Shown in pieces: positions 12,064 through 33,222 of a stretch of 33,313 nucleotides of DNA. How positions within the stretch are numbered: the first letter of the stretch is position 1; each line of letters begins with the position of its first letter. Source of the DNA: an uncultured Bacteroidaceae bacterium. GTDB lineage: Bacteria > Bacteroidota > Bacteroidia > Bacteroidales > Bacteroidaceae. The stretch covers positions 1-33,313 of the forward strand of contig CAJONZ010000030.1 of NCBI GenBank assembly GCA_905236065.1, in the 5' to 3' direction. Position numbers and translations under genes: made by a program. The notes under the pieces are model-generated. The model worked only from the letters and a program-made list of their open reading frames with translations. It was not told the DNA's origin and searched no databases.

Positions 12064-13659
12064 TTAGAATTCTGAAGTGAAGTGGAATTTTATCTGCTTG
12101 AAATCCTGCTGTGCCATTTGCAGTACATAGTTCGAGTCGGCCAGGAACACGTCGCGTCCCTCCCGGTCTTTGGCCATGTACTGATACTTGCGCTTCTTGA
12201 AAGCCTCCAGCTCCGCCTCGTCGTCACTTTCAATCCAACAGGCTTTGTAAAGCGACAGCGGCTCCCACTTGCACTTGGCATTGTACTCATTCTCCAGACG
12301 GTATTGAATCACCTCAAACTGAAGCTGTCCCACCGTGCCGATAATCTTGCGGCCATTAAACTGGTTCACAAACAACTGGGCCACGCCCTCGTCCATCAGC
12401 TGGTTGATTCCTTTCTCCAGCTGCTTGGTCTTCATCGGGTCGGCATTCTCAATGTATTTGAACATTTCAGGCGAGAACGAAGGCAAGCCCTTGAAATGCA
12501 GCTGCTCGCCCTCCGTCAGCGTGTCGCCGATTTTGAAGATGCCATTGTCGGGCAGACCCACGATGTCGCCCGGCCATGCCTCGTCAATCGTCGATTTCTT
12601 TTGAGCCATGAATTGGGTGGGGCTTGAGAAGCGCACCGTCTTTCCATTCCTCACATGCAGGTAGGGTGCATTACGCACAAACTTGCCGGAACACACCTTG
12701 CAGAAGGCCGTACAACTGCGATGGTTCGGGTCGATGTTGGCCGTAATCTTGAAAATGAAGCCCGTGAACTTCGGCTCCTCCGGCTGCACTGTGCGTTCCT
12801 CTGCCTTCGTCGGGCGGGGCTCAGGGGCAATCTCCACAAAGCAGTCCAACAGCTCCTGCACACCGAAATTGTTCAGGGCCGAGCCAAAGAACACCGGTGC
12901 CACTTCTGCCTCTAAATAAGTCTGCACGTCAAACGCATCATACACCCCGTCAATCATTTCCAGGTCCTCACGCAGCTTGTTGGCGTCTGTCTCGCCCACC
13001 ATTTCGTCCAGCTGGGCCGAGTTGACATCCACTTCCACCTTCTCCGTCACCACCTGCTTATTGGGCGTAAACAAGTTCAGGTTCTGCTCATAGATATTAT
13101 ATACACCCTTGAAACGTGCCCCCTGGTTGATGGGCCAGCTCAACGGGCGCACACGGATTTGCAACTCGCTCTCCACCTCGTCCAGAAGATCAAACGGGTC
13201 GCGTCCCTCGCGGTCCATTTTATTGATAAACACAATCACGGGTGTCTTTCTCATGCGGCACACCGTCATCAGCTTGCGGGTCTGTGCCTCCACGCCCTTG
13301 GCACCGTCAATCACGATGATGGCCGAATCCACAGCCGTCAGCGTGCGGAACGTGTCTTCTGCAAAGTCCTGGTGACCCGGCGTGTCCAGGATGTTCACCT
13401 TGTAGGTCACCCCGTCCGTCTCCCGCATGGTGCTGGGGGTATAGTCAAATTCCATCACCGAAGTGCTGACCGAGATACCACGTTGTTTCTCAATCTCCAT
13501 CCAGTCCGATGTGGCCGTCTTCTTGATTTTGTTCGACTTCACGGCACCCGCCACCTGAATTTGTCCGCCGAACAGCAGCAGCTTCTCGGTGAGCGTGGTT
13601 TTTCCGGCGTCAGGGTGCGAAATAATCGCAAACGTACGTCTTCTATTTATTTCATTCAT
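12064..13659 (-). CDS. prfC: peptide chain release factor 3
   Basis: A 531-residue translational GTPase that removes RF1/RF2 from the ribosome after termination. The start at 13659 ([14 protein letters not shown]) fits the family; the longer frame adds 44 residues that do not. G1 is [13 protein letters not shown]3 is DTPGHQDF and G4 is NKMDREG, all canonical, and the C-terminal part is RF3-specific. It is the first gene of the proposed operon with tsaC, clc and fmt. The promoter lies at 13717-13746. Confidence 0.95.
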
Positions 13660-13716
13660 AAGTAAAAAGGGCAGCAAAACAGGAACCTTCCCGTCTTGCC
13701 TTTCTGAAAACAGCTG

Positions 13717-13746
13717 CAAATGTAGATAAAAAATCCCGAATAACAA
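13717..13746 (-). promoter_or_regulatory. promoter of prfC operon
   Basis: On the minus strand TTG (13744-13746, within TTTG) is followed by 19 bases and then TACATTTG (13717-13724), a full -7 match. The start codon lies about 58 bases downstream of the -7 box. Confidence 0.65.
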
Positions 13747-13780
13747 AATCCCTTCGACAAAGAAAACACGCACCCCACTC

Positions 13781-13816
13781 AAAAAGGGCAAGGCCGTCCT
13801 CGGCCTCGCCCTTTTT
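13781..13816. terminator. strong bidirectional terminator between xylB and prfC
   Basis: AAAAAGGGC pairs with GCCCTTTTT, and inside it AGGCCG pairs with CGGCCT around a TCCT loop, with one mismatch between the two stems. The A and T runs at the ends make it work in both directions. It should end the xylB transcript. Confidence 0.85.
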
Positions 13817-17904: not shown

Positions 17905-19012
17905 ACGAACGCAGATGGCTCTCCTGCTGAGTCTGGCCTTTGCTCTCATCCTCACGGTGTTTGCCTCCTGCGAGCGCCGTCCGCTGGAAGTGCTGGCTGA
18001 CGAGGGCGTACAGGTGAAAATCATCAACGACTGGGACAACCACAACTTCATCTACGGCAAGAAACCGAACGGCATGACGGTGATGCTCTGGGGCGAGAAC
18101 ACCCACGACACCCGCATCGAGTCGCGCAACGACACCATGATTGTGTTCAACGACCTGAAGCCCGACCGCTACCGCCTGATAATCTTCAACGAGACATTCT
18201 CCGACTTTGGCTATCAGTACTTTGCCGAGGCGGGCAGCTATGAGAATATGGTGATGCACTCCAAGCACTACTCCACACGCGGATGGGACAGCGACGTGGA
18301 TTACATGCACTATCCCGACCCCATCAGCGTGTCGCTCGACACCTTCGACATCACCACCGACATGACCAACCGCGACACGACCATCTTCGTCTTCTACGAG
18401 GACTACATTGACAATGGCGCCTCCGCCTACAGCGGAAAGGTGCGCACCTACGAGATTCCCGAGCTGGCATGGCCCATGACCGTCAACCTCTATGTCAAGG
18501 CGAAGGTGAAGCGCCGTCAGGCCATCAAGAAGAACGGCATCGAGGCGAACATCAGCGGCATGGCCGACGGATTCTACTTCAGCCAGATACACCGTACCAC
18601 GGAGAGCGGAACCCTGCGCCTGACCGACTGGACGATGGAGGCCATCGGAGACCCCGCCGACAGCATGGGACTCATCACCGTCCACATCCCGTCGTTCGGC
18701 TTGCCCTACGGCAAGGAGCTCCTGTCGCAACGCGACTCGGCGGACAACATCCTGAACTTCAACATCACACTGATAAACGACTCCGTACAGCAGTGTTCCT
18801 TCAAGGTGGCCAAGGACATGCGCTACATCGACCCCAAGGGGCGTGAGGCGCAAATCCGCTACCGCACGGACCTGCAGAACATACGACTGGAAATCGACCT
18901 CTCCGACATCATCGTCATGCCGCCCATCCCCATCCCGCAGGGTGGTGCAGGCTTCAACGCCAAGGTGGACGAGTGGGAAGATGGCGGCACCTTCGAGTTT
19001 GGCGGATTTTAA
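17894..19012 (+). CDS. lipoprotein of type V pilus locus, DUF5119-like (probable anchor or accessory subunit)
   Basis: A 372-residue lipoprotein. The hydrophobic leader ends LTVFASC, so Cys26 would be lipidated. I start at 17894 because AGGAGG lies 8-13 bases upstream, a strong Shine-Dalgarno that is unusual in this phylum. The ATG at 17864 would deepen the overlap. The start lies 11 bases inside the previous gene. The body is beta-rich with two apparent Ig-like halves and resembles DUF5119/FimB-Mfa2-like proteins. In such loci an anchor lipoprotein ties the fibre to the outer membrane. Its place directly before two fimbrillin genes supports that role; the exact family assignment is less sure. 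Confidence 0.7.
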   Translation: MGNKRTQMALLLSLAFALILTVFASCERRPLEVLADEGVQVKIINDWDNHNFIYGKKPNGMTVMLWGENTHDTRIESRNDTMIVFNDLKPDRYRLIIFNETFSDFGYQYFAEAGSYENMVMHSKHYSTRGWDSDVDYMHYPDPISVSLDTFDITTDMTNRDTTIFVFYEDYIDNGASAYSGKVRTYEIPELAWPMTVNLYVKAKVKRRQAIKKNGIEANISGMADGFYFSQIHRTTESGTLRLTDWTMEAIGDPADSMGLITVHIPSFGLPYGKELLSQRDSADNILNFNITLINDSVQQCSFKVAKDMRYIDPKGREAQIRYRTDLQNIRLEIDLSDIIVMPPIPIPQGGAGFNAKVDEWEDGGTFEFGGF

Positions 19013-19024
19013 AAAAAATCCAAC

Positions 19025-19096
19025 CTCAGATTACTCAGAATACTCAGATTACTCAGAATACTCCGATTACTCAGAATTTTCAGATTACTCAGAACT
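19025..19096 (+). repeat. eight 9-nt tandem repeats in the pilus operon
   Basis: Eight consecutive 9-base units of CTCAGATTA or CTCAGAATA type fill the gap between the lipoprotein stop and fimbrillin 1. They end 16 bases before the fimbrillin ATG. If translated they would encode a (D/E)YS repeat, but no start codon places them in a gene. Confidence 0.9.
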
Positions 19097-19112
19097 ATAA
19101 AATTAAATTATT

Positions 19113-20885
19113 ATGAAAAGAATGAAGACCCTGTCTCTTTTCGCAGCTTTTCTCACCATGTTGCTTGCGGCATGTACCAACGAGAAAGAGCTGCTGACAG
19201 TGGAGGCCCCGACGGCAGGCAATGCCATCGACGAGGGCGACCTCATCAAGTTCAGTACCTACATGAGCAACAGTGCCTACAGCCGTGCCGGAGCTTACGG
19301 CGCCATCGACACTGACAAGCTCAAGCAGGCTGCCTACGGTTTCGGCGTCTTTGCCTACTACACGCAGGGGCAGACGTATGCCAACTACCGCACCAAGAAC
19401 GAGGTGGCCGACCACTTCCCCCTCCACATGTACAACGAGCAGATTGTCTATGACAACACGGCCTCGAAATGGGTGTATGCCGACCCGCGCAACCAGAAGG
19501 CTTGGCCGAACGAGTTCTCAAGTGGTGCGCTCGACGACCAGAACAACGACTCGGGCAACGACCCCGCCACGGGCACGACGAGCCGAGGCAACGTCAGCTT
19601 CTTTGCCTATGCGCCCTATGCCCCTGAGACCTCGAACATCGTGACGGAGGCCGGCGTACCCATGCAGCAGGTGAGCACCAGCGCACAGCAGGGCACCGAC
19701 GCGGGCATCGTGGCCTTCAGCCGTAACAACTTCAACGGTATTACGGGCGGCAAGTACTCCGATGTCTATCTGAAGTACATCCTGCCGACCGATGCCGACA
19801 AGCAGGTTGACCTCCTGTGGGGAACCACGGGCAACAACAGCGACAACGTGCTGGGGACCAGCCAGCCGGGCGTTCCGACAGCTGATCTTGATGGTGGTCT
19901 GGGCCGCTTCAGCGTGAATGCCGACTTGACCAAGCAGAAGACTAACGGTACCGTCAGCTTCCTCTTCAAGCACACGCTGGCCAAGATTGGCGGTTCATAC
20001 GTGGGCGCGGGCGACGGTTCGGACAACAACCCCAACACGCCGTCGAACGGTCTGATGGCCATTCTCGACATCGACAAGGACGGACAGGAGTCGGGCGGCT
20101 CGCTGCAACCCTACGTGGGCACGAAGGTAGATGGACAGACGGAGTACAACACGAAGGTGACCATCAACGAGATTACCCTGATGAGCGAGAAGCAGCTCAC
20201 CGACGCGGGTGTGGCCGCCATCCAGAACAATACGGCGTTCGACTTTAACGACGCGACCTACGTCACCGACCTCTACAACACGGGACTCTTCAACCTCGTC
20301 ACTGGTGTATGGACCGATCACACGACCACGGGCACCAACAACGTGCGCACACAGACCATCCTACCCTCGGGCGCTGACTACAACGGCAGTACGGACGACG
20401 CAAAGAAGGATGCCGTGCTGAATGCGAACGTGGCCGAGCCTACCAGCTTCACGACAACGGAGTTCACACAGGCACGTTACGAGGAACTGCCCATCGGTGT
20501 CACCACCTTTGCCAAGAACGTCTATGCCAACGACGTGCAGCCGTTTGTCTTCATCCCTGGTACGCATCCTGTCATCACGGTGACCATCACCTACACGGTG
20601 CGCACCTACGATGCCAAGCTGGCCCGCAACTACTCGGAGGTGGAGCAGAAGATTACCAAGCGTCTCTACTTCCTTGACGAGATTGAGCTGAACAAACAAT
20701 ACAACGTGCTCTTGCACCTGGGCCTCACCACGATGAAATTCACGGCAACCGTGGAGGACTGGGATGCCACGAACATCACCCCGTCGAGCCCTGTGCCGAC
20801 ACCGGGTAGCGGTGCCTCCCCCGTGGCCACCTACGAGGACGAGGTTGAGCACATCTATCTGCCCAAGAACGTAGCTGGGAACTAA
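19113..20885 (+). CDS. fimbrillin family lipoprotein 1 (Mfa1/FimA-like type V pilin)
   Basis: A 590-residue pilin precursor. The leader ends LLAAC (Cys21, lipobox). After it comes a propeptide and SRAG with Arg58, the position where an arginine-specific protease is known to cut type V pilins before polymerisation. The mature part begins GAYGAIDTDKLKQAAYGFGVFAYYT and contains NVSFFAYAPYAP and VSFLFKHTLAKIGG, hallmarks of the Mfa-like fimbrillin fold. It ends with IYLPKNVAGN, so it has no extra C-terminal domain. Codons are GC-rich throughout (AAC, GAC and ACC dominate). It is probably cotranscribed with the two preceding genes and is likely a main shaft or minor subunit. Confidence 0.8.
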   Translation: MKRMKTLSLFAAFLTMLLAACTNEKELLTVEAPTAGNAIDEGDLIKFSTYMSNSAYSRAGAYGAIDTDKLKQAAYGFGVFAYYTQGQTYANYRTKNEVADHFPLHMYNEQIVYDNTASKWVYADPRNQKAWPNEFSSGALDDQNNDSGNDPATGTTSRGNVSFFAYAPYAPETSNIVTEAGVPMQQVSTSAQQGTDAGIVAFSRNNFNGITGGKYSDVYLKYILPTDADKQVDLLWGTTGNNSDNVLGTSQPGVPTADLDGGLGRFSVNADLTKQKTNGTVSFLFKHTLAKIGGSYVGAGDGSDNNPNTPSNGLMAILDIDKDGQESGGSLQPYVGTKVDGQTEYNTKVTINEITLMSEKQLTDAGVAAIQNNTAFDFNDATYVTDLYNTGLFNLVTGVWTDHTTTGTNNVRTQTILPSGADYNGSTDDAKKDAVLNANVAEPTSFTTTEFTQARYEELPIGVTTFAKNVYANDVQPFVFIPGTHPVITVTITYTVRTYDAKLARNYSEVEQKITKRLYFLDEIELNKQYNVLLHLGLTTMKFTATVEDWDATNITPSSPVPTPGSGASPVATYEDEVEHIYLPKNVAGN

Positions 20886-20983
20886 TCGCAGGCTGCTTTG
20901 TTCCTGTTTTGTTCTTTTCGGAAGAAATTTTGTCCCAAAAACGTTAAAAAACGAAGGATTTGTAAAAATATATTAATAAAAGG

Positions 20984-21014
20984 TTGCAAAAGTGCTTTGA
21001 AAGCAATAATTTTG
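20984..21014 (+). promoter_or_regulatory. separate promoter of fimbrillin 2
   Basis: TTG (20984-20986) is followed by exactly 20 bases and then TAATTTTG (21007-21014), a full match to the Bacteroidetes promoter. The leader to the ATG is about 75 bases. This lets fimbrillin 2 be expressed apart from the upstream pilus genes. Confidence 0.7.
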
Positions 21015-21093
21015 TATTCTTATAAGTAGGCCCGAAGTGGCTTTTTGAACAAGAAAATACGATTAAATTATATTTATTAACTTCTAAAACACA

Positions 21094-23535
21094 ATGATTA
21101 TGAAGAAACTTAAATTCATTACAGCGTCAGCCGCCATTGCAGCCTTGACGCTGACGGCGTGCCAGAATGACGTTGACTTCACGCAGGAGGACGCCCAAAA
21201 CGCCGCTGCCCTTGACGACAACGCCATCCAATTCGGCACGTATTTGAGTGAGAGCCAAGGGACCAGGGCTGGCTATGAAGGTAGCATTAACACATCTGTT
21301 CTTCAAGGATTGGCTGACGGTTTTGGCGTTTTTGCTTACTATACTGGAACAGAAACATATAATGCGGCTCAATATGGTGATTGGAACGCTGGTGCTTTGA
21401 ACCCGAAGTATGCTCCTAATTTCATGTACAATCAGAAGGTTAGCTACAATTCTTCGCTTACCAATGATTATATCACAAAATGGACTTACGAGCCATTGAA
21501 GTATTGGCCAAATGAGGTTGGCAATACTTCTACCGCTGATGATGATCAAGATGAAAACAAATCCAATAATCCTGCAACAGGCTCTGGTACATACGGTGGT
21601 AATGTTAGTTTCTTTGCATACGCCCCTTATACTTATGTAACAGTAGGAGATGGAGTACCAGAGAATCCAGGTGGCATTTGGGCTAATTATAATGCAGGAA
21701 CAACAGATGGTATTGTCGGCATTACTACGAATGCGGCTTTGGGTGATCCCAAAATTACTTATGTGATAGCAAGTGATGGCAACACTGTTGATTTGCTTTG
21801 GGGTACCTATAATGGTACAAAAGAAAACGTGGTCTCTGAAACGGCCAACAATTTAGGTGTGCAAGGAGATGGAGACAAAAATAATGATATACCAAAAGTT
21901 ACAGACCATACTTACGCTGGAACTATTCTTGATACTTATAAACTGAATGCAGACCTTACCAAGCAGAAAACAACTGGTACCGTCGGCTTCCTCTTTAAGC
22001 ACGCTCTTGCTAAAATCGGTGGCTCTACAACTGTTACAGATGGTGGTGAGGCTAAAAATGGCTTCATGGTCATTCTTGATATTGACGACATGAAGGGTAA
22101 AGAAAGCGGTGGAAGTCTTGCTGTGGGAGAAACCAAGGTTACTATTAACAGCATCCGAATTTCTAATGACCTTAATGGAGATGGTGATACAGGTGATACT
22201 GATGTCTATGGAAGTGGAATTGACGAGATGGGCACTAATAAAGGTGTTTTCAACCTTGCAACCGGTCAGTGGACAAACACGGAATCTGTCAACAATGGTT
22301 TGATGTCTCATACAGTATATCCTACAAATACAAGTGAGTCAACTGTTAGCGCAACTCTCAACTCTGCTATCGCTGAGAAACTGAGCAGTAGTACTCACGA
22401 AACCGTTCTTTTTGATGCAATTAATAAGAACTTTGAAGGTACTACAGGTACAAATAATTTGGCTGATTTCTTTGGAAACATAAATGATTTTGCAAGCCAA
22501 ACAGGTGTACTTTCAGCTAAAAAACTGGCTGTTTATGATGGTACAGAGGCAAATCCATTGGTGTTCATTCCTGGAACTACTCCTACATTGAAAATTACAG
22601 TTGACTATTTCGTAAGAACAAAAGATGCAAATCTGCAAAGAGGCTATAGCGAAGTACGACAAGTTATTACCAAACTTATTCAGTTCAGTACTCCTGTAGA
22701 ACTCAACAAGCAATATAGCCTGTTGATGCACCTTGGCTTGACAAGTGTGAAATTCACAGCTGAAGTTTCAGATTGGGATGTTGCATACACAGATGCTAAT
22801 AGCAACGGACGTCCTGATCCAGAGGAATATGATATTAAGGATGTTTATCTGCCACGCAATGTCAGCGAACTCACTGCTGCAACAACTTCTACAAACTATG
22901 TAGGTAGTATTGGTGGTACATTCCAGATTCCAAATGTGTCATTGGTTTATTCAGACCCTGCTGACAACATCACAATATCCAAAGATGATTTTGCAGCACA
23001 GAACGTGACATTTACCTCTTCTGAAGGTTGGGCTACCGTAGATGCCGCAACAGGTGTGGTAACATTTACTGCAAATGAATCGCCATATCAGCGTACAACA
23101 ACTATCACAGTTAAACGTGGTGATTCAGGCTCTGGTAATTTCCAAACTGCAACATTTGAATTAGCACAAAAGGGTGCGACATTGTCAAGCTTATCATTGT
23201 CATTGTCAGCACCATCAACAACAACGGCAAATCTTTCAGTTGACGAGGTGGCTACAACAAATGCAACATTTACGCATACAACATATAATTACGGCACACC
23301 ACTTTCTACAACAACGTACATTGATGATGTTTCCAATACTGCTGGTTATGGCGTTACTGGTGATGGAACAGGATCTTTCACGTTAAAGAACGGAACAATT
23401 ACATTTACAGGAGTAGGTACAGCTACAGTCACAGCAACTTATGATGTAAATTGCGACAACAATGATGCATTCGCAGCAGGAAGTGTAAATGTCGAAAAGA
23501 CTACAACTGCAACTGTTACATGCACAGCACCATAA
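21094..23535 (+). CDS. fimbrillin family lipoprotein 2 with BACON-like and Ig-like C-terminal domains
   Basis: An 813-residue pilin-like lipoprotein; the ATG at 21100 is an equally good start. The lipobox is LTLTAC (Cys23) and the processing site is TRAG with Arg58, the same position as in fimbrillin 1. The fimbrillin fold follows (GFGVFAYYT, NVSFFAYAPYTY, VGFLFKHALAKIGG) up to VYLPRNVSEL at about 590, where fimbrillin 1 ends. Two extra domains follow: a BACON-like module (about 595-697, GWATVD...TTTITVKRG...FELAQKG) and a Ser/Thr-rich Ig-like module (698-813). The extension suits a tip, adhesin or glycan-binding role. The first ~50 codons are GC-rich like the upstream gene, and the rest is clearly AT-rich. 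Confidence 0.8.
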   Translation: MIMKKLKFITASAAIAALTLTACQNDVDFTQEDAQNAAALDDNAIQFGTYLSESQGTRAGYEGSINTSVLQGLADGFGVFAYYTGTETYNAAQYGDWNAGALNPKYAPNFMYNQKVSYNSSLTNDYITKWTYEPLKYWPNEVGNTSTADDDQDENKSNNPATGSGTYGGNVSFFAYAPYTYVTVGDGVPENPGGIWANYNAGTTDGIVGITTNAALGDPKITYVIASDGNTVDLLWGTYNGTKENVVSETANNLGVQGDGDKNNDIPKVTDHTYAGTILDTYKLNADLTKQKTTGTVGFLFKHALAKIGGSTTVTDGGEAKNGFMVILDIDDMKGKESGGSLAVGETKVTINSIRISNDLNGDGDTGDTDVYGSGIDEMGTNKGVFNLATGQWTNTESVNNGLMSHTVYPTNTSESTVSATLNSAIAEKLSSSTHETVLFDAINKNFEGTTGTNNLADFFGNINDFASQTGVLSAKKLAVYDGTEANPLVFIPGTTPTLKITVDYFVRTKDANLQRGYSEVRQVITKLIQFSTPVELNKQYSLLMHLGLTSVKFTAEVSDWDVAYTDANSNGRPDPEEYDIKDVYLPRNVSELTAATTSTNYVGSIGGTFQIPNVSLVYSDPADNITISKDDFAAQNVTFTSSEGWATVDAATGVVTFTANESPYQRTTTITVKRGDSGSGNFQTATFELAQKGATLSSLSLSLSAPSTTTANLSVDEVATTNATFTHTTYNYGTPLSTTTYIDDVSNTAGYGVTGDGTGSFTLKNGTITFTGVGTATVTATYDVNCDNNDAFAAGSVNVEKTTTATVTCTAP

Positions 23536-23884: not shown

Positions 23885-24018
23885 AAATTGTCTCACGGAA
23901 ACGACGGAAACCCACAGAAATTTTCTGTGCATATCTGTGCTTTCTGTGTGACCTTTGAAAAAAATGTCCCGCAGAAATAGCAGAAACAGCAGAAAGGACT
24001 TCGCATGGCGAAGTGAAA
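23885..24018. repeat. gene-free leader with short repeats before the MNT gene
   Basis: This stretch holds clustered CAGAAA and CTGTG motifs (ACAGAAATTTTCTGT is an inverted repeat). It also holds a second exact copy of CTTCGCATGGCGAAGTGAAA (23999-24018; first copy 23760-23779). I see no gene here. The frame open from 23955 reads through low-complexity RNSRNSRK and lacks a credible start. Confidence 0.55.
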
Positions 24019-24050
24019 ATTTATTTATGATAATTCATAAAAAACGAAAT

Positions 24051-24371
24051 ATGCAAAAGCTACAAAACCAACCCGTATTAGACCTTATCCGCACGACGAT
24101 TCGGGCGCAGGAACCTACAGCCGAGATAATCCTCTACGGCAGCAGGGCGCGTGGGGATGCTAGAAAAGACTCGGACTGGGATGTGGTGACCATCTTCGAC
24201 CGTCCTTGGCGTACACCCACAGAGCGGGGAAATCTCAGCTATGAACTTTGGGCAAAGGGACTTGAGATGGGCGAAGAGATAAATACTTTTGAATACACAA
24301 AACAACAATGGGACAATTTGCCCCCCTCACTTTTTAAGCACAATGTGCTGAATGAGGGAATAAGATTGTAG
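24051..24371 (+). CDS. MNT-type nucleotidyltransferase (probable antitoxin)
   Basis: A 106-residue minimal nucleotidyltransferase. The signature GS-x10-DxD is complete: Gly30-Ser31, then Asp42 and Asp44 in DSDWD. I start at the ATG at 24051. A longer start at 24027 lies inside a TTTATGA/TCATAAA inverted repeat, and the frame upstream is low complexity. It lies seven bases before a HEPN gene, the classic MNT-HEPN order. In characterised MntA/HepT systems the nucleotidyltransferase adds AMP to a tyrosine of the HEPN ribonuclease and so blocks it. I infer the same logic here, because the catalytic residues are intact. Confidence 0.85.
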   Translation: MQKLQNQPVLDLIRTTIRAQEPTAEIILYGSRARGDARKDSDWDVVTIFDRPWRTPTERGNLSYELWAKGLEMGEEINTFEYTKQQWDNLPPSLFKHNVLNEGIRL

Positions 24372-24378
24372 AAAAATC

Positions 24379-24786
24379 ATGAGTTTAACAGAAACAGATA
24401 GAAAAGCGCTGGTAAGCTACCGTCTCGACAAGGCACGTTCCACGTTTGAGGACGCTGTTTTTGTTGCGAGTGCAGGTCGCTGGAATTTGGCGGTCAACAG
24501 ACTCTATTATGCCTTGTTTCATGCTGCTTCGGCACTCTTGCTTACCAAAGGTTTTGTTACACATACGCACAAAGGCGTGTTGGTTCAGATGAATTTGCAA
24601 TTTGTGAAAATGGGAGTTCTGGACAAGGAAGATGGTGTGCTGTTGTCACAGCTCTTCTGTCTGCGTCAAGAGGCTGATTATGAAGATTTCATTGAAATGA
24701 CAGAAGAGCAAGTCAACGACTTCATTCCACGAACGCGCCTGTTGCTCGATAAAATTATGCAAATCGTACATGACGATAGTCGTTAA
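24379..24786 (+). CDS. HEPN-domain protein (probable RNase toxin of the MNT/HEPN pair)
   Basis: A 135-residue all-helical protein. The segment NRLYYALFHAASALL carries the HEPN signature R-x6-H (Arg41, His48), the presumed RNase site, with a YYA stretch between. It begins seven bases after the nucleotidyltransferase, so the two are cotranscribed. HEPN proteins of this group cleave RNA as dimers and serve in toxin-antitoxin or phage-defence modules. Tyr43 and Tyr44 lie within the motif and could be targets of modification. A non-toxic nucleotide-binding HEPN remains possible. Confidence 0.8.
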   Translation: MSLTETDRKALVSYRLDKARSTFEDAVFVASAGRWNLAVNRLYYALFHAASALLLTKGFVTHTHKGVLVQMNLQFVKMGVLDKEDGVLLSQLFCLRQEADYEDFIEMTEEQVNDFIPRTRLLLDKIMQIVHDDSR

Positions 24787-24855: not shown

Positions 24856-25089
24856 ATGAATGCAGCAGGAAAAACACTCAACCCAATGCAGCTCCATATT
24901 CTGGAAATGATGAGCTACTGTCAGACAACACAAGCCATGACAGAACTGAAGAATGTGCTGGCTGAATACTATGCAAAAAAAGTACAGGAGGAAGCTGACC
25001 GCCTTTGGGATGAAGGAGTACTCAATGCGGAAGCCATTGAACGCATTGGGAAGGAGCATTGGCGCACACCATATCGTTCTGCAAGATGA
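24856..25089 (+). CDS. small protein paired with PIN toxin (probable antitoxin)
   Basis: A 77-residue, mostly helical and charged protein. I start at the ATG at 24856 (MNAAGKTLNPMQLHIL). An ATG 18 bases earlier would sit in the promoter leader. The central part ELKNVLAEYYAKKVQEEADRLWDEG and the end KEHWRTPYR match what I recall of small proteins next to Bacteroidetes PIN genes. I see no clear DNA-binding fold. Its stop overlaps the PIN start by four bases (ATGA), which gives translational coupling. The antitoxin role is inferred from gene order and size. Confidence 0.7.
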   Translation: MNAAGKTLNPMQLHILEMMSYCQTTQAMTELKNVLAEYYAKKVQEEADRLWDEGVLNAEAIERIGKEHWRTPYRSAR

Positions 25090-25496
25090 GACGTATTGTG
25101 CTTGATACAAATTGCCTTGTGATGGCGCTTCCTTCCAGAAGTCCATACCATCGGGTGTGGGAGGATTTTTGTGAGGAAAGAGTGGAGTTGTGCGTTTCCA
25201 CTGAGATTCTGCTGGAATATGAGGAGATAATCTCAGAAAAGGCATCGCCATACATGGCTGATATTGTGATTAATGCCCTTATTAACCGTCCAAACCTAAT
25301 TAAAGTTGAGCCTAAATGGAGGTGGAACTTGATAGAACAGGATTGGGATGATAACAAATTTGTTGCTTGCGCCCTTGCAGGACAGGCAGAGTTCATCGTC
25401 TCGAACGATGCTCACTTTAAAGTTCTGGAAAAGGTGGATTTTCCTTGCTTGTCGGTAAAAAGAATAGAAGAGTATTGCTTACAGCCGCAATCTTAA
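25086..25496 (+). CDS. PIN-domain ribonuclease (putative toxin)
   Basis: A 136-residue PIN-domain protein of the COG1569 type. The acidic metal-binding residues are in place: Asp7 in VLDTN, Glu44 in ILLEYEE, Asp88/Asp89 in DWDDNKF and Asp108 in VSNDAHF. I start at 25086 (MRRIVLDTN), which puts the first strand at the N-terminus as expected; the longer frame from 25059 adds nine residues that overlap the antitoxin. PIN toxins cleave RNA, often tRNA or rRNA, but the target is unknown here. It is intact by length and motifs. Confidence 0.85.
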   Translation: MRRIVLDTNCLVMALPSRSPYHRVWEDFCEERVELCVSTEILLEYEEIISEKASPYMADIVINALINRPNLIKVEPKWRWNLIEQDWDDNKFVACALAGQAEFIVSNDAHFKVLEKVDFPCLSVKRIEEYCLQPQS

Positions 25497-26269: not shown

Positions 26270-27394
26270 TCAATCAACCCACATGAGGTCGGACATGATG
26301 TCGTTGGACACAAAAAGTCCCTTTTTGGATAGGCGCATTTGTCCGTTTTCGAGCAGGAGCCTGCCTTGTTGCAGATGTTTCTTTGCGTTTTGGAGGCAGT
26401 AGTCGGAAAATAGGGTGCCGTAAGTGTTTTTTAGTGTCTCCAGATTCATTCCCTCGCAGGTTCTCAGTGCGGTGAAGACAAATTCATCGTATTGTTCGGA
26501 GCGGGAAAGGGACTCGATCTCGGCAGGGAAGTGACCTTTCTCTGCGCTTTGTAGATAGGTGACGAGGAAATCGGGATTGGCTTGCCGTGTCTGCCCGTCG
26601 AAAGAATGTGCCCCTGCGCCAACGCCGAGGTAGGGGATGCCTTTCCAATAGCTGGAGTTGTGCAGGCTGCGTTTGCCGGGACGGGCAAAGTTGGAAATCT
26701 CGTAGTGTTCGAATCCGGCACGCTTCATGGCTTCCATCAGGTACTCGTACATGGCGAGGGAAACCTCCTCGTCTATCTCGGCGATGGTTCCCGCTGCCCT
26801 CAGCTTGTCCAAGGCGGTTCCTTCCTCGTACATGAGGGAATAGGCGGAAAGATGCTGCACGTCCAACGCAATGGCTCGCTCAACGTCGGCTTTCCATTGT
26901 TCGAGCGTTTGTCCGGGAAAGCCGAACATCAAATCGATGCTGATGTTGTCGAATCCTGCGGCTTTGGCCTGGGCGACGGCTTCGATGGCCTGTCGGGCCG
27001 TGTGACGGCGATGCAAGAACCGCAGGCGTTTGTCGTCGAAAGTCTGTAAGCCCATGCTCAGTCGGTTGATGCCCAAGGCACGGAGTTGGGATAGGCTTTC
27101 GTTGGCGTCGTCGGGGTTACATTCGAGGGTTATTTCTCTCGCGTGTACATTATATATATTATAGACGGTGTCTAAGAGGGGGGAGATTTGCTGGTGTGAA
27201 AGCAGTGAGGGGGTGCCCCCGCCGAAATAGATGGTCTTGATGGGGTCGCCGTGGAGATAGTCTCGCCGGACTTCCAACTCGCGGCAGACCGCCCGCACGT
27301 ACTCGTCCCGCAAGGAGAGCGAGGTGGTGGAGAAAAAGCCGCAATAGATGCAACGACTTTTGCAGAAGGGGATATGTATGTAGATTCCTGCCAT
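26270..27394 (-). CDS. hemW: radical SAM heme chaperone HemW
   Basis: A 374-residue radical SAM protein. The cluster motif C-x3-C-x2-C (Cys11, 15, 18; CKSRCIYC) is near the N-terminus, followed by YFGGGTPSLL. LHNSSYWKGIPYLGVGAGAHS is the HemW-type signature that separates it from true coproporphyrinogen oxidase HemN. A C-terminal HemN-C-like domain ends the protein. I start at 27394 (MAGIYIHIPFC), just downstream of the -7 box. HemW delivers heme to respiratory enzymes. Older annotations call such genes oxygen-independent coproporphyrinogen III oxidase. Confidence 0.9.
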   Translation of the reverse strand: MAGIYIHIPFCKSRCIYCGFFSTTSLSLRDEYVRAVCRELEVRRDYLHGDPIKTIYFGGGTPSLLSHQQISPLLDTVYNIYNVHAREITLECNPDDANESLSQLRALGINRLSMGLQTFDDKRLRFLHRRHTARQAIEAVAQAKAAGFDNISIDLMFGFPGQTLEQWKADVERAIALDVQHLSAYSLMYEEGTALDKLRAAGTIAEIDEEVSLAMYEYLMEAMKRAGFEHYEISNFARPGKRSLHNSSYWKGIPYLGVGAGAHSFDGQTRQANPDFLVTYLQSAEKGHFPAEIESLSRSEQYDEFVFTALRTCEGMNLETLKNTYGTLFSDYCLQNAKKHLQQGRLLLENGQMRLSKKGLFVSNDIMSDLMWVD

Positions 27395-27427
27395 TGAAAA
27401 AGGTCGGATGGATGCGTACATTGGGCG

Positions 27428-27435
27428 CAAATATA
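27428..27435 (-). promoter_or_regulatory. -7 box of hemW
   Basis: On the minus strand TATATTTG followed by CGCC, a full -7 match, 33 bases before the ATG. A TTG 22 bases upstream is slightly too far for a standard -33 box. Confidence 0.55.
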
Positions 27436-27494
27436 CGCTTTTTTAAGGTAAGAAATACAAAAATGTTTTACAACATAAAATTGCGAAGCTCAAA

Positions 27495-27511
27495 TACGTA
27501 ACTTTTACGTA
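27495..27511. promoter_or_regulatory. palindromic possible operator between hemW and the EF-G paralogue
   Basis: TACGTAA-CTT-TTACGTA is a perfect 7-bp inverted repeat with a 3-base centre. It is followed at once by TAATTTTAGC, a weak -7-like box (27510-27519) reading toward the EF-G gene. Its symmetry and place suggest a binding site for a dimeric regulator. Confidence 0.45.
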
Positions 27512-27586: not shown

Positions 27587-29746
27587 ATGAAAGTTTACCA
27601 AACACATGAAATCAAGAACATTGCCTTGCTTGGCAATGATGGTGCTGGTAAGACGACTCTTACCGAAGCACTGCTTTATGAGGCTGGCATCATAAGCCGC
27701 CGCGGACGAATCACAGCTAAGAACACCGTCAGTGACTACTTCCCTGTAGAGCAGGAGTATGGTTACAGCGTGTTCTCAACTGTTTTCCATGTTGAGTGGA
27801 ACGGAAAGAAACTCAACATCATTGACTGTCCTGGTTCAGACGACTTCGTTGGCGCGGCAATTACAGCATTGAACGTAACCGACACGGCACTTCTGCTGAT
27901 TAACGGTCAGTACGGCCCGGAGGTTGGTACGCAGAACCATTTCCGATATACACAAAAACTGGGCAAGCCAGTCATCTTCCTGGTCAATCAGCTTGACTCT
28001 GAGAAGTGTGACTTCAAGCAGACCGTGGAGCAGCTGACGGAGATTTACGGCAACAAGGTTGTCCCCGTGCAATATCCGCTGAACGAAGGCCCGAATTTCA
28101 ACGCCCTGATTGACGTGCTTCTGATGAAGAAGTATTCGTGGAAGCCAGAGGGTGGCGCTCCAATTATTGAGGACATCCCTGCCGAGGAAATGGACAAGGC
28201 GATGGAGATGCACAAGGCACTCGTGGAGGCCGCCGCTGAGAACGACGAGAACCTGATGGAGAAATTCTTCGAGACGGAGTCACTGACTGAGGACGAGATG
28301 CGTGAGGGTATCCGCAAGGGACTTGCCGCTCGTTCCATGTTCCCTGTCTTCTGCGTTTGCGCCGTGAAAGACATGGGTGTGCGCCGTCTGATGGAATTCC
28401 TGGGCAATGTCGTTCCGTTTGTTGACCAAATGCCACAGGTACACAACACACGCGGCGAGGAAGTGAAGCCCGTGGTGGATGCTCCTACCTCCCTCTATTT
28501 CTTCAAGACAGCCAACGAGCCACATATTGGTGGTGTGCAGTACTTCAAGGTTATGTCGGGCCGTGTACGCGAAGGCGACGACCTGACCAACAGCGACCGT
28601 GGCAGCAAGGAGCGCATTGCTCAGTTGTTCGCTTGTGCCGGTGCCAACCGCATCAAGGTTGAGGAACTGGTGGCAGGTGATATTGGCTGCACCGTGAAGC
28701 TCAAGGATGTGCGCACAGGTAACACCTTGGTCGGCAAGGACTGTGACAACCGCTTCAACTTCGTGAAGTACCCGAATCCGAAATACATCCGTGCCATCCG
28801 TGCAGAGAACGAGGCCGACATGGAGAAACTCGTTGCGGCTATCCAGCGCATGAGCCAGGAAGACCCGACATGGATTCTCGAACAGAGCAAGGAGCTCAAG
28901 CAGACCTTGGTGAAGGGTCAGGGCGAATTCCACTTGCGCACCCTGAAGTGGCGTCTTGAGAACAACGAGAAGATTAAGGTTGTCTTTGACGAACCGAAGA
29001 TTCCATACCGTGAGACCATCACGAAGGCTGCCCGTGCGGACTACCGCCACAAGAAGCAGTCGGGTGGTGCCGGCCAGTTTGGTGAGGTACACCTCATCGT
29101 CGAGCCATACATCGAGGGTATGCCTGAACCAACCACTTATAAGTTCGGCAATCAGGAATTCAAGATTACCCCGAAAGGCAAGGAAGAAATCGATTTGGAG
29201 TGGGGCGGCAAAGTCGTATTCATCAACTCCGTCGTCGGTGGTGCCATTGACGCACGTTTCATGCCGGCCATCCTCAAGGGTGTGATGAGTCGTATGGAGC
29301 AAGGCCCGTTGACGGGTTCTTACGCACGTGATGTTCGCGTCATCGTCTATGACGGTAAGATGCACCCGGTTGACTCAAACGAACTTTCGTTCATGCTCGC
29401 AGGTCGTCACGCTTTCTCCGATGCCTTCAAACAGGCCGGTCCAAAGCTTTTGGAGCCGATTTACGATGTGGAAGTCTTTGTGCCAAGCGACAAGATGGGT
29501 GATGTCATGAGTGACCTTCAGGGTCGTCGTGGTATGATTATTGGCTCGGAGTCAGAAGGTGGTTACGAGAAGTTGATCGCAAAAGTTCCGTTGAAGAGCC
29601 TGAGCAGCTACTCTACAGCGCTTTCGAGCATCACGGGCGGACGTGCCAGCTTCATCATGAAGTTTGCAAGCTACGAACTCGTGCCTACAGACATCCAGCA
29701 GAAGCTGATGGCTGAGTTCGAGGCTGCGAATAAGGACGAGGATTAA
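27587..29746 (+). CDS. fusA2: EF-G paralogue with altered GTPase motifs (EF-G2 type)
   Basis: A 719-residue elongation factor G homologue with all five domains. G1 is kept (GNDGAGKTT, residues 16-24). Switch I, normally ERGITIT, reads EYGYSVF (57-63). Switch II, normally DTPGH, reads DCPGS, so the catalytic His is Ser84. G4, normally NKxD, reads NQLD (134-137). These changes predict little or no GTP hydrolysis. This fits the EF-G2 of Bacteroides thetaiotaomicron, described as an EF-G paralogue lacking GTPase activity that supports translation during starvation and gut colonisation. Domain IV (KKQSGGAGQFGEVHL) looks intact, so ribosome translocation should still be possible. As I recall, the Bacteroides gene is likewise followed by rprXY and rpsF-rpsR. 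The divergent hemW and the palindrome upstream may bear on its control. Confidence 0.88.
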   Translation: MKVYQTHEIKNIALLGNDGAGKTTLTEALLYEAGIISRRGRITAKNTVSDYFPVEQEYGYSVFSTVFHVEWNGKKLNIIDCPGSDDFVGAAITALNVTDTALLLINGQYGPEVGTQNHFRYTQKLGKPVIFLVNQLDSEKCDFKQTVEQLTEIYGNKVVPVQYPLNEGPNFNALIDVLLMKKYSWKPEGGAPIIEDIPAEEMDKAMEMHKALVEAAAENDENLMEKFFETESLTEDEMREGIRKGLAARSMFPVFCVCAVKDMGVRRLMEFLGNVVPFVDQMPQVHNTRGEEVKPVVDAPTSLYFFKTANEPHIGGVQYFKVMSGRVREGDDLTNSDRGSKERIAQLFACAGANRIKVEELVAGDIGCTVKLKDVRTGNTLVGKDCDNRFNFVKYPNPKYIRAIRAENEADMEKLVAAIQRMSQEDPTWILEQSKELKQTLVKGQGEFHLRTLKWRLENNEKIKVVFDEPKIPYRETITKAARADYRHKKQSGGAGQFGEVHLIVEPYIEGMPEPTTYKFGNQEFKITPKGKEEIDLEWGGKVVFINSVVGGAIDARFMPAILKGVMSRMEQGPLTGSYARDVRVIVYDGKMHPVDSNELSFMLAGRHAFSDAFKQAGPKLLEPIYDVEVFVPSDKMGDVMSDLQGRRGMIIGSESEGGYEKLIAKVPLKSLSSYSTALSSITGGRASFIMKFASYELVPTDIQQKLMAEFEAANKDED

Positions 29747-29827: not shown

Positions 29828-29862
29828 GGGAGGTTTGCTTCAGTGCAAACCTCCCTTCTTTC
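29828..29862 (+). terminator. second hairpin after the EF-G paralogue
   Basis: GGGAGGTTTGC pairs perfectly over 11 bp with GCAAACCTCCC around a TTCAGT loop, followed by TTCTTTCTTT. It is a strong terminator separating the EF-G gene from the two-component operon. Confidence 0.8.
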
Positions 29863-29957: not shown

Positions 29958-29988
29958 TTTGTGATTAATTAATATCCTGCTTACTTTG
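29958..29988 (+). promoter_or_regulatory. promoter of the two-component operon
   Basis: TTTG (29958-29961) is followed by 19 bases and then TTACTTTG (29981-29988). The -7 variant is the same as at xylB and the ECF sigma gene. The ATG is about 48 bases downstream. Confidence 0.65.
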
Positions 29989-30036
29989 CACTTCAAACGC
30001 GACAAAGCGCGGGATTTGATAGGTAAGAGAAAGAAA

Positions 30037-31581
30037 ATGAAGAAATCAGTAATCGGCATATTAGCAATCGTCATGGGAGTGTCCTTCGCGTGCCTCCTTG
30101 CCTTGCAGGTGCGCTACATCGACGAGATTTTGGGGATGCGCAAAGCCCATTTTGAGGAATACGTGGGCCGGAGCATCAATCAGGTGGCGCACAAACTGGA
30201 GGTGGACGAGGCCGCCCGCTACCTTGAGCAGGGTTCCGACGCCATGATAGGCATCGCCACGGCCATCGACTCCGTCATGGTCAGCACCGACTCCACCGTT
30301 ATCCAGCGTACCCACCAGGTTCGCGCCAAGGACGGCAGCGTCTTCACCTCGCTGGAGACCACGGCCAGCACTTCCCTCTCCGATAAGTATTTCACTAAGC
30401 GCAACCTCGGCGGACATACCGACAAGATACGCTCCTTGCAGGAAATCATGGCCAAGCGCTATACCTATGAGAAATCCCTGCTTGACGAGGTCATCTACAG
30501 CATTCTTTATACTGCCCACGACCGTCCTTTGGCCGAGCGTATCGACTTCAAGCAACTTGACCAGTATATCAAGTCGGAGCTGATTAGCAACGATATCAGC
30601 CTGAAATACCATTTCTCGGTGGAGACCAACAATGGGCGGGTGGTCTATAAATGCCCCGATTACGAGGACGAGGGCAGCGACAAGGCTTTCAGCGTGGACC
30701 TTTTCCAGAACGACCCCGTGCAGAAGGGTGGTGTGCTGAAGGTTCATTTCCCCAAGCAGAGCCGCTTCATTTATCACTCCATCTGGTTCATCACGCCCTC
30801 GCTGATTTTCACCATCGTCCTGTTGACCACCTTCATCGTCACGCTCGTGCTCATCTTCCGCCAGAAGAAACTCACGGAGCTTAAAAACGACTTCATCAAC
30901 AACATGACGCACGAGTTCAAGACGCCCATCAGTTCCATCTCACTCGCAGCCCAGATGCTGGGCGACGATAGCGTGAACAAGACGCCGCAGTTGATGCAAC
31001 GCCTCACCACCACCATCATGGACGAGACCAAGCGCCTGCGTTTCCAGGTGGAGAAAGTCCTGCAACTCTCCATGTACGAACACCAGAAGGCCAACCTTCG
31101 TATGCAGGACATTGACCTGAACGAACTGGTGGCCGGCGTGGTACACACCTTCACCCTCAAGGTGGAGAAAAACGGCGGTAAAATCATTTCGCAGATTGAA
31201 GCCGCCGACCCGCTCATCTTCGTTGATGACATGCACTTCACCAATGTGGTGTTCAACTTGATGGACAACGCCGTGAAATACAGGAGAAGCGACGCAGAGT
31301 TGGAACTCAAGGTGCGCACCTGGAACGAGTCGGGCAAAGTCTGTCTCTCCATCCAGGACAACGGCATCGGCATTGCGAAAGACGACCTGAAGCGCATATT
31401 CGATAAATTCTACCGCGTCCACACAGGCAACCTGCACGACGTGAAGGGCTTTGGCCTGGGCCTCGCATACGTGAAGAAAATCGTGGAGGACCACAAGGGC
31501 ACCATTCATGCGGAGAGCGAACTGGGTATCGGCACCAAATTCGTCATCAAACTGCCCGTGGTCAAAGAGACGGATGAATGA
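30037..31581 (+). CDS. rprX: sensor histidine kinase, RprX-like
   Basis: A 514-residue inner-membrane sensor kinase. TM1 is at about 3-23, followed by a periplasmic sensor region (about 25-250) and TM2 at about 255-282. The H-box MTHEFKTPIS holds the phospho-acceptor His292. The ATPase domain has the N-box NLMDNAVKY, the G1 box DNGIGIAKDD and GFGLGLAYVKK. I start at 30037 (MKKSVIGIL), which places TM1 at the N-terminus; the longer frame adds 17 basic residues. It pairs with the response regulator 47 bases downstream. The order EF-G2, kinase, regulator, rpsF is what I recall around RprXY in Bacteroides. The signal is not known. Confidence 0.85.
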   Translation: MKKSVIGILAIVMGVSFACLLALQVRYIDEILGMRKAHFEEYVGRSINQVAHKLEVDEAARYLEQGSDAMIGIATAIDSVMVSTDSTVIQRTHQVRAKDGSVFTSLETTASTSLSDKYFTKRNLGGHTDKIRSLQEIMAKRYTYEKSLLDEVIYSILYTAHDRPLAERIDFKQLDQYIKSELISNDISLKYHFSVETNNGRVVYKCPDYEDEGSDKAFSVDLFQNDPVQKGGVLKVHFPKQSRFIYHSIWFITPSLIFTIVLLTTFIVTLVLIFRQKKLTELKNDFINNMTHEFKTPISSISLAAQMLGDDSVNKTPQLMQRLTTTIMDETKRLRFQVEKVLQLSMYEHQKANLRMQDIDLNELVAGVVHTFTLKVEKNGGKIISQIEAADPLIFVDDMHFTNVVFNLMDNAVKYRRSDAELELKVRTWNESGKVCLSIQDNGIGIAKDDLKRIFDKFYRVHTGNLHDVKGFGLGLAYVKKIVEDHKGTIHAESELGIGTKFVIKLPVVKETDE

Positions 31582-31628: not shown

Positions 31629-32339
31629 ATGATTGAAGAAAAAAACGAAGACGTTAGCATCCTCTTATGCGAAGACGACGAGAACCTGGGTATGCTTCTG
31701 CGTGAGTACTTGGAGGCAAAAGGCTACAAGGCCGATCTTTGTGTCGATGGCGAGCAAGGCTACAACGCCTTTGTGTCCAAGCAGCACGACCTCTGCATCC
31801 TCGACGTGATGATGCCGAAGATGGACGGTTTCACGCTGGCCGGACGCATCCACGAAATCAACCCCGAGACTCCCTTCATGTTCCTGACAGCAAAGAACCT
31901 GAAGGACGACATCCGCGAAGGTTTCGAACTGGGAGCCGACGACTACATCACCAAGCCCTTCTCCATGGAGGAAGTGGTGTTCCGCATTGAGGCCATCTTG
32001 CGCCGTGTGCGTGGAAAGAAGAATAAGGACCAGCAAATCCACCAGATTGGTGGTTTCACCTTCGACACCCAAAAGCAGATCCTGACCATTGGCGACAAGC
32101 AGACCAAGCTGACGACCAAGGAGGCCGAACTGCTGACCCTGCTCAGTAACAAGGCCAACGAGCTCCTGCAACGCGACTATGCCCTGAAAACCATCTGGAT
32201 TGACGACAACTACTTCAACGCCCGTTCCATGGACGTGTATATCACCAAGCTGCGCAAGCACCTGAGCGATGACCCACATGTGGAAATCCTCAACGTACAC
32301 GGCAAAGGTTACAAGCTCGTCATCACGGAAGACGAATAA
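31629..32339 (+). CDS. rprY: OmpR-family response regulator, RprY-like
   Basis: A 236-residue DNA-binding regulator. The receiver domain (about 9-125) has the acidic pair in CEDDENLG, the phospho-acceptor Asp59 in LDVMMPKMDG and the conserved Lys in YITKPFS. The C-terminal winged helix (about 135-232) has LTTKEAELLTLL and MDVYITKLRKHLSDDPHVEILNVHGKGYKLV, typical of OmpR/PhoB. It is cotranscribed with the kinase. RprY of Bacteroidales is linked to stress responses and, in B. fragilis, to tetracycline resistance gene control. The identification rests on sequence and gene order. Confidence 0.85.
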   Translation: MIEEKNEDVSILLCEDDENLGMLLREYLEAKGYKADLCVDGEQGYNAFVSKQHDLCILDVMMPKMDGFTLAGRIHEINPETPFMFLTAKNLKDDIREGFELGADDYITKPFSMEEVVFRIEAILRRVRGKKNKDQQIHQIGGFTFDTQKQILTIGDKQTKLTTKEAELLTLLSNKANELLQRDYALKTIWIDDNYFNARSMDVYITKLRKHLSDDPHVEILNVHGKGYKLVITEDE

Positions 32340-32587: not shown

Positions 32588-32808
32588 TGTATTATTTATT
32601 TTTTTAGTTAAAATTCCAATATTTTTCCGTGTCCTGAAAAGCTGTATCCACTGGACACAGCCCTACGTCCACACTTTTTCTCTCGCAAAGTAAGCGATTT
32701 TTCAGCAAACAGAGAAATAAATCCCAAAGAAAATTACCCTTTGCCGTGTTTTTTTAGGCTGGAAGCAAACTTTTCCCAGCTTTGCTTTCTCATTTGCCAG
32801 AAAAAACG

Positions 32809-32816
32809 TACCTTTG
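32809..32816 (+). promoter_or_regulatory. -7 box of the rpsF operon
   Basis: TACCTTTG followed by C, a full -7 match, about 74 bases upstream of the rpsF ATG. No TTG at 19-21 bases upstream. Between 32588 and 32808 I see only AT-rich DNA and no gene. Confidence 0.65.
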
Positions 32817-32820
32817 CACC

Positions 32821-32845
32821 GCTTTTCGCAAAAATGCGCAAAAGC
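32821..32845 (+). promoter_or_regulatory. leader hairpin of rpsF mRNA (possible S6:S18 autoregulatory site)
   Basis: GCTTTT-CGCA-AAAA-TGCG-C-AAAAGC forms a 10-bp stem with one bulged C, right at the predicted transcript start and just after CACCG. S6:S18 complexes in several bacteria bind a CCG-containing structure in their own leader. Whether this is that site is inference. Confidence 0.4.
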
Positions 32846-32889
32846 CAATTAAAAACAAATTATTAACAACAACTTATTTATTGACTCAA

Positions 32890-33222
32890 ATGAATCAATA
32901 CGAGACCGTTTTCATTTTAACTCCCGTTTTATCTGAACCACAGGTAAAGGAAGCGGCAGACAAGTTCAAGGATCTCCTTGTTCAGAGTGGAGCAGAGATC
33001 ATCAACGAAGAGAGCTGGGGTCTGAAAAAGTTGGCTTACAGCATCGAGAAGAAGTCTTCGGGCTTCTACCAGATGATTGAGTTCAAGGCTGAGCCGACAG
33101 TGATTGCTAATTTCGAGTTGCAGATGCGTCGCGACGAGCGCGTACTCCGCTATCTCACAGTTAAGAACGAAAAGTACGCTGCGGCATACGCTGAGAAGCG
33201 TCGTAACAAGAAGGAGGCATAA
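32890..33222 (+). CDS. rpsF: 30S ribosomal protein S6
   Basis: A 110-residue ribosomal protein of the small-subunit platform that binds S18. [21 protein letters not shown] and the later [25 protein letters not shown] segment are characteristic, and a Lys/Arg-rich tail ends it. I start at 32890; the longer frame begins upstream of the promoter. rpsR follows four bases after the stop, the usual order (with rplI expected beyond the window). Confidence 0.95.

Follow-up and report, generated by a model that had tools for sequence, protein, structure and literature searches.

An orthologue of Bacteroides EF-G2 with altered GTPase motifs, predicted in an uncultured Bacteroidaceae bacterium

The need of translocation for GTP hydrolysis is a long-standing question. 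The second elongation factor G of Bacteroides (EF-G2; gene fusA2, BT_2167) touches on it directly: the B. thetaiotaomicron protein is said, by the title of Han et al. 2023 as cited, to lack GTPase activity, and by papers that describe it to translocate without hydrolysis; it reportedly contains a 26-residue region (Han et al. 2023). Here a counterpart is described from a 33,313-nucleotide stretch of DNA (contig CAJONZ010000030.1; hereafter the window) of an uncultured Bacteroidaceae bacterium, in which the gene occupies positions 27587..29746 of the plus strand. It is very probably the fusA2 of a gut Bacteroidaceae, induced by Cur on carbon exhaustion and encoding a protein that translocates without ribosome-stimulated GTP hydrolysis; the regulation, starvation role and hydrolysis-free translocation are carried over from published work on B. 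thetaiotaomicron.

Statements in two citing papers are explicit: EF-G2 'enables GTP-independent translation' (PMC10294740) and 'catalyzes translocation without GTP hydrolysis' (PMC12775393), and a passage of the latter already uses the protein as an argument against the need for hydrolysis. Its regulation also has been described. Sections of PMC6989115 (2020) report that Cur (BT4338) directly activates fusA2 by binding a 22-bp upstream site (consensus wwwTATGTTnTAnAACATAwww); that fusA2 is induced 238-fold under carbon limitation; and that mouse gut colonisation is impaired when either fusA2 or its Cur site is lost. The wider EFG II subfamily was treated in 2011 by Margus et al. (PMC3150367). 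In the sections drawn on here, that paper prints YGYSV as the Bacteroidetes G2 motif; gives P-loop positions Gly16 and Leu25 and a Ser in G2 for EFG II; reports the NKxD of G4 as conserved; and concludes that the Mg-binding position of G2 is maintained and crucial.

The window protein, 719 residues from an ATG start, scores 1318.9 bits over residues 1-716 against the NCBI family EFG2_Bacteroid (NF058620; curated cut-off 1000), and 928.4 bits against the broader subfamily model NF009381 (cut-off 583). The canonical EF-G model TIGR00484 gives 492.5 bits, below its cut-off of 659.4. The best solved chain, 7uvp/8dmf, matches at 1349.5 bits over residues 1-717 and has an identical switch I, Ser84 and NQLD. 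These matches, together with the kinase-RprY gene order found next to fusA2 in B. fragilis, identify the gene as an orthologue of Bacteroides EF-G2, as a first-pass annotation of the window had proposed. The likeness covers the same motifs over the full length; a kinase-RprY pair 3' of the gene; a Cur-like site 5' of it; and 26 extra residues in domain IV. Between the window protein and B. fragilis EF-G2, 17% of residues differ. The protein adds no new kind: its motif (2011), Cur control (2020), hydrolysis-free function (2023, as cited) and a curated NCBI family are already known.

Among the 80 records listed, the nearest named ones are uncultured metagenome-assembled genomes (MAGs) titled Bacteroidaceae, Prevotellaceae or Bacteroidales, at 95 to 89% identity; sources in their titles include deer, horse, goat, buffalo, yak and sheep guts. 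More MAGs follow at 86 to 82%, along with Bacteroides, Phocaeicola and Mediterranea. A Prevotella-like host was first suggested; by its relatives, the host is judged to belong to an uncultured gut lineage of Bacteroidaceae. No Prevotella species is among those 80 records (several are titled Prevotellaceae), and the nearest cultured names are the three genera just given. One record, titled Roseburia sp. and probably mislabelled or from a mixed MAG, has an EF-G2 91% identical to that of the window.

What the catalytic His and NKxD do in translational GTPases is textbook knowledge. Alignment with canonical EF-G of Thermus thermophilus and of the same genus places every motif that the first-pass annotation had read, all on the plus strand. 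The G1 P-loop, GNDGAGKTTL (residues 16-25; 27632..27661), is intact. Switch I (G2) reads EYGYSVF (residues 57-63; 27755..27775) versus canonical ERGITIT. G3 reads DCPGS (residues 80-84; 27824..27838), with Ser84 at the catalytic His position, and the whole of switch II is DCPGSDDF versus DTPGHVDF. Finally, G4 reads NQLD (residues 134-137; 27986..27997) versus NKxD in general and NKMD in the canonical protein. All three motifs are indeed altered, but to call them broken, as was done, overstates the case. Ser61 aligns with the Mg-binding Thr of canonical EF-G, and on this alignment 'altered' describes switch I better than 'broken', because Ser61 fills a position that Margus et al. (PMC3150367, in the sections drawn on) call maintained.

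The features given for EFG II are present: RGITI is absent, and Ser stands at position 4 of G2 (YGYSV, residues 58-62). The P-loop likewise has the EFG II residues Gly16 and Leu25 (1wdt numbering), versus canonical AHIDAGKTTT. Members such as Thermus EF-G2 (1wdt) and mycobacterial EFG2 also lack RGITI and the catalytic His (Tyr in 1wdt); their Mg position is occupied by Ser or Thr. However, the sampled Bacteroidia forms differ from them in having a domain IV insert and mostly lacking the NKxD Lys, and Thermus EF-G2 is reported to be GTPase-active. Moreover, NKxD was reported conserved in the subfamily (a tendency, not a defining rule), whereas the window has NQLD.

Pfam recognises a GTP-binding domain, domain 2, domain III, domain IV and an EF-G C-terminus. 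Canonical EF-G (fusA, in the str operon) has the same five-domain architecture and P-loop but is 30-34% identical to the window protein; RGITI, the catalytic His and NKMD are intact in the 13 canonical sequences read, and the insert is absent. This insert is an extra 26-residue segment in domain IV (residues about 512-537; 29120..29197, plus strand), located by segment length, phmmer and Pfam. The segment spans 51 residues in the window protein versus 25 in the same-genus canonical EF-Gs (2/2), and 23-33 across all 13 canonical sequences. The phmmer match to canonical EF-G breaks at residue 511, and the best Pfam domain IV stretch resumes at 538. An AlphaFold2 prediction from 22 close sequences (mean predicted local distance difference test score 50, predicted template modelling score 0.33) was not used.

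The gene is under purifying selection. The ratio of nonsynonymous to synonymous substitution rates (dN/dS) is 0.036 and 0.038 for the closest two of the named relatives, and for locus L272 it is 0.079; values of 0 to 0.02 for three other loci (L241, L243, L244) mean little, as synonymous sites are saturated. All 12 other same-genus EF-G2 proteins read have the same motif pattern, save that 10 carry Ala at position 84. By these estimates, the altered motifs are the product of neither chance nor decay.

Of 148 sampled order genomes (the window's own included), 137 have EF-G2, 134 over the cut-off and three as fragments at contig ends; the order is Bacteroidales, judged from named relatives. In a sample of the class, 41 of 197 genomes have EF-G2, eight of them in the order. 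The share outside Bacteroidales is thus 33/189, and the distribution there is patchy. The class search had matched 48 of the 197 genomes; seven with 479-504-bit matches only were dropped, and those matches are canonical on reading. A phylum search with NF009381 matched 395/395 genomes, but yields no EF-G2 count because this model also matches canonical EF-G.

For motif counts, an alignment of 223 EF-G sequences was split without reference to the motifs into 210 EF-G2, which score 476 bits or more to the window protein, and 13 canonical, which score no more than 402. One EF-G2 fragment has no G domain, which leaves 209. The catalytic His and RGITI occur in none of these, and all 209 keep the P-loop Lys (GK[T/S]) and Asp80; the Mg position is Ser in 206 and Thr in three. 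Of the 209, 53 retain the G4 Lys: 49/50 from the phylum outside the class (a biased set, as a single search supplied 30 of the 50 as its best hits, and one family accounts for 28 of these 30), 2/32 from the class outside the order, and 2/127 from the order, window included. The G4 Asp is replaced by Glu (as in NHLE or NQLE) in 23/109 sequences assigned to the same order and in 0/100 others. At the phylum level, the domain IV segment of EF-G2 measures 22 residues in 45/50 and 42 in the remaining five; at the class level it measures 42 in 26/32. Among loci of the same order it is 51 residues in 71/110, as in the window, and 42 in 32/110. Two of the three motif changes, in switch I and at the catalytic His, are thus old throughout the sampled EF-G2 branch, and the G4 change is the one mostly confined to the class.

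A maximum-likelihood tree was built from 115 of the 223 rows, thinned by hand for redundancy (24 of the 30 best hits just mentioned were left out) and stripped of the motif columns. The search was quick, with support from the Shimodaira-Hasegawa-like approximate likelihood ratio test only. A fully supported branch divides canonical EF-G from EF-G2, and at least four changes of the G4 Lys are needed on this tree. In the deepest EF-G2 sequences, His and RGITI are already gone; Tyr stands in for His in most of them, and Leu or Phe in one branch, together with [NT]KxD. Judged from the tree, the loss of His and RGITI is old and common to the whole sampled EF-G2 branch; Thermus EF-G2 shares this loss.

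Tree and character states, read from the canonical outgroup, suggest an order for later steps. The domain IV insert would have come next. The G4 Lys would then have disappeared around the base of the class: it is gone in 155/159 sampled Bacteroidia EF-G2, the exceptions being two class-level rows (L109, L137) and two order-level rows. Ser or Ala84 and YGYSV would have followed in the clade around Bacteroidaceae, and last the Cur site. Beside the 2011 report of a conserved NKxD, no description of G4 loss in Bacteroidia was met, although no search was aimed at it.

These proteins form a natural series: Tyr with NKxD and no insert; Tyr with NKxD and the insert; Leu or Phe with NQxD; Ser or Ala with NQLD; and NHLE. 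The series would allow the share of each change in hydrolysis, nucleotide specificity and translocation to be measured in real proteins. It also invites a speculation that we consider rather doubtful: that EF-G2 lost its GTPase stepwise (His and RGITI first, as in the reportedly still active Thermus EF-G2, then the insert, then the guanine-recognition motif G4, whose Asp specifies guanine). In that case the late G4 change, and not the altered switch motifs, would mark the point at which a slow GTPase became a translocase with no particular need of GTP. If so, such EF-G2 proteins perhaps work nucleotide-free, use other nucleotides, or are insensitive to (p)ppGpp in starvation.

About 110 bases 5' of the start codon lies AATGTTTTACAACATA (27462..27477, plus strand), a Cur-like operator with one mismatch. 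The Bacteroides -7 consensus is TAnnTTTG, and TAACTTTT (27499..27506, plus strand), with one mismatch, is a possible but weak candidate for this element; two other one-mismatch matches lie nearby. A scan for sigma-70 promoters gave matches not above those in shuffled sequence. Promoter regions were compared in 77 of the 80 named loci, leaving out two whose match is not full length and one with only 11 bases upstream. A Cur-like site lies within 300 bases upstream in 52/77 at two or fewer mismatches and in 65/77 at three or fewer, against a background of 0.6% and 7%, respectively, in first-order Markov versions of the upstream regions of the loci graded by identity below. The B. fragilis site and the published Cur site of B. 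thetaiotaomicron agree in their 16-base core. At two or fewer mismatches, sites occur in 8/14 loci (window included) at 85% or more identity to the window protein; in 10/25 at 68-85%; in 3/12 at 58-68%; in 1/91 at 50-58%; and in 0/22 below 50%. Because sites fade with falling identity, the Cur wiring seems younger than the EF-G2 protein, unless distant lineages have another operator.

This suggests a working model. Cur most likely turns on fusA2 once carbon runs out. EF-G2 would bind GTP through its retained P-loop, Ser61 at the Mg position, and Asp80. It would then bind the pre-translocation ribosome, where binding energy, acting through domain IV with its extra 26 residues, could move tRNA and mRNA. 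By analogy with the B. thetaiotaomicron protein, EF-G2 would depart without ribosome-stimulated GTP hydrolysis. The outcome would be protein synthesis that is slow but cheap, alongside the fast canonical EF-G.

Several observations weigh against this model. On the regulatory side, 12/77 named relatives have no Cur-like site even at three mismatches. The window's genome has three HTH_Crp_2 matches, two of them over the cut-off, and none of the three was identified as Cur. The G4 change is not fixed, as two order-level sequences (L086, L162) have NKLD. Finally, comparable substitutions in switch I and II occur in T. thermophilus EF-G2 (1wdt), which lacks RGITI, has Tyr in place of His, and reads TKLD in G4. 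Nevertheless, it is reported to be a ribosome-dependent GTPase with little activity in the absence of ribosomes, whereas M. smegmatis EF-G2 is reported to have no GTPase (both in the part of PMC3832671 drawn on). The corresponding part of PMC3150367 describes Thermus EF-G2 as having higher intrinsic GTPase; both accounts go back to the same 2007 work and differ, but both make it a GTPase. Lost GTPase activity is therefore not provable from motifs alone, because Thermus EF-G2 shares the loss of His and RGITI yet reportedly hydrolyses GTP. The survey thus cautions that to read 'no GTPase' from loss of the switch motifs is unsafe. The same holds for the proposal that translocation without hydrolysis is general in the order: the protein is widespread there, as the 137/148 count attests, but its hydrolysis-free function is not safely derived from motifs.

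The Thermus precedent is also an argument for a different enzymology, in which the window protein would still hydrolyse GTP slowly under stimulation by the ribosome and would translocate at a low rate, not free of hydrolysis. The P-loop Lys, Asp80 and Mg-position Ser or Thr, invariant in 209/209, agree with that. However, the Bacteroidaceae proteins went further than Thermus EF-G2, with Ser or Ala84 and Gln for the G4 Lys, and the B. thetaiotaomicron orthologue is reported (as cited by title) to have no GTPase. A retained slow GTPase is thus unlikely, and the hydrolysis-free EF-G2 is the preferred reading. Readings that dispense with EF-G2 function altogether fare far worse. The depositors of 7uvp and 8dmf labelled the chain 'Tetracycline resistance protein TetQ', which would make the window gene a ribosomal protection protein. 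Tet(Q)-type proteins do have EF-G-like domains in common with it. The window protein scores 133.8 bits with the TetQ model (cut-off 1425, about ten times the score) and 257.7 with the general Tet model (cut-off 775), and exceeds the EFG2_Bacteroid cut-off, so TetQ identity was rejected as most improbable. The family scores conflict with the label, which looks like an annotation error. Nor do the three altered motifs point with any real probability to a decaying EF-G copy, its GTPase motifs rotting by neglect: EF-G2 is not decaying because dN/dS is low. The full-length frame and the gene's presence in nearly all sampled genomes of the order also speak against decay, and the pseudogene reading was rejected as contradicted by the selection estimate.

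It also could be supposed that EF-G2 is the only EF-G of the organism and performs all translocation. Canonical EF-G was not found in the window's genome, an 88% complete assembly of 130 contigs. Similarly, six of 12 same-genus genomes (65-86% complete) have no second EF-G-like gene among the matches listed. However, S10 was not found in the window's genome either, and none of its PF00009 matches has a frame of EF-Tu size. Contig C61 of that genome begins inside rpsL, and its bases 2-248 align at 94% with rpsL of the relative G003, where rpsL is followed by rpsG, fusA, rpsJ and rplC (rpsG, rpsJ and rplC were named by recognising the sequence, not by family search). The missing canonical fusA is likeliest an assembly gap, because C61 breaks off inside rpsL, next to rpsG-fusA in relatives; the lack of a second EF-G gene, named beforehand as a refuting finding, thus carries no weight in this incomplete assembly. 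The other six same-genus genomes do have a second EF-G-like gene (350-362 bits), among them all four at 90% or more completeness (G002, G003, G010, G011); the two read (L236, L237) have RGITIT, DTPGHVDF and NKMD. All 136 other order genomes with EF-G2 have two or three EF-G-family matches, the extra ones mostly unread. Given the probable gap at the str operon and the second EF-G-like gene in the most complete same-genus genomes, a sole EF-G was rejected as hardly credible.

In 40/148 order genomes there are three EF-G-family matches, which suggests that these carry an additional EF-G paralogue as well as fusA and EF-G2. A separate observation concerns gene order: in some genomes EF-G2 and the str operon (rpsL-rpsG-fusA-rpsJ-rplC) are arranged head to head, with a single intergenic region of 0.2-0.7 kb shared by both EF-G genes. 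All 10 loci picked for apparent closeness, from nine families of the order, have this arrangement. Overall it occurs in at least 18/110 same-order loci and 16/94 sampled families, a lower bound since many flanks are only 600 bases (about 21 loci are known to 600 bases only). It was rejected as a property of the window gene, being absent from the window; in 40 other loci followed further upstream, over about 2.5 kb in 39 and 1.45 kb in one, it was not found either.

Around the window gene, HemW is the divergent upstream neighbour (26273..27430, minus strand). Downstream on the plus strand lie a sensor histidine kinase (29986..31581), probably RprX by position, and the response regulator RprY (31629..32339; NF051850, 400.6 bits, cut-off 370). 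Full flanks are available for 66 named relatives, of which 59 have the kinase, 58 RprY, and 41 HemW; in B. fragilis, kinase and RprY adjoin fusA2, but HemW does not. A terminator-like hairpin of 11 pairs lies 3' of the EF-G2 gene (29828..29855, plus strand). It weakly suggests that the gene is transcribed alone, the region holding four such sites versus 2.8 (standard deviation 1.8) in shuffles. Rfam gave no match in the window.

Elsewhere in the window, RF3 (12067-13791; 736.9 bits) is another EF-G-like translational GTPase. A nucleotidyltransferase and HEPN tandem (23955-24786 and 25059-25496), with a PIN-domain open reading frame after it, resembles an MNT-HEPN toxin-antitoxin pair. Positions 15994-23535 encode DUF3575/DUF3868 and DUF5119 proteins, one protein without assignment and one weakly BACON-like protein; this cluster we take to be, perhaps, a Bacteroidales fimbrial locus. 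Beyond RprY, the gene for ribosomal protein S6 lies at 32782-33222.

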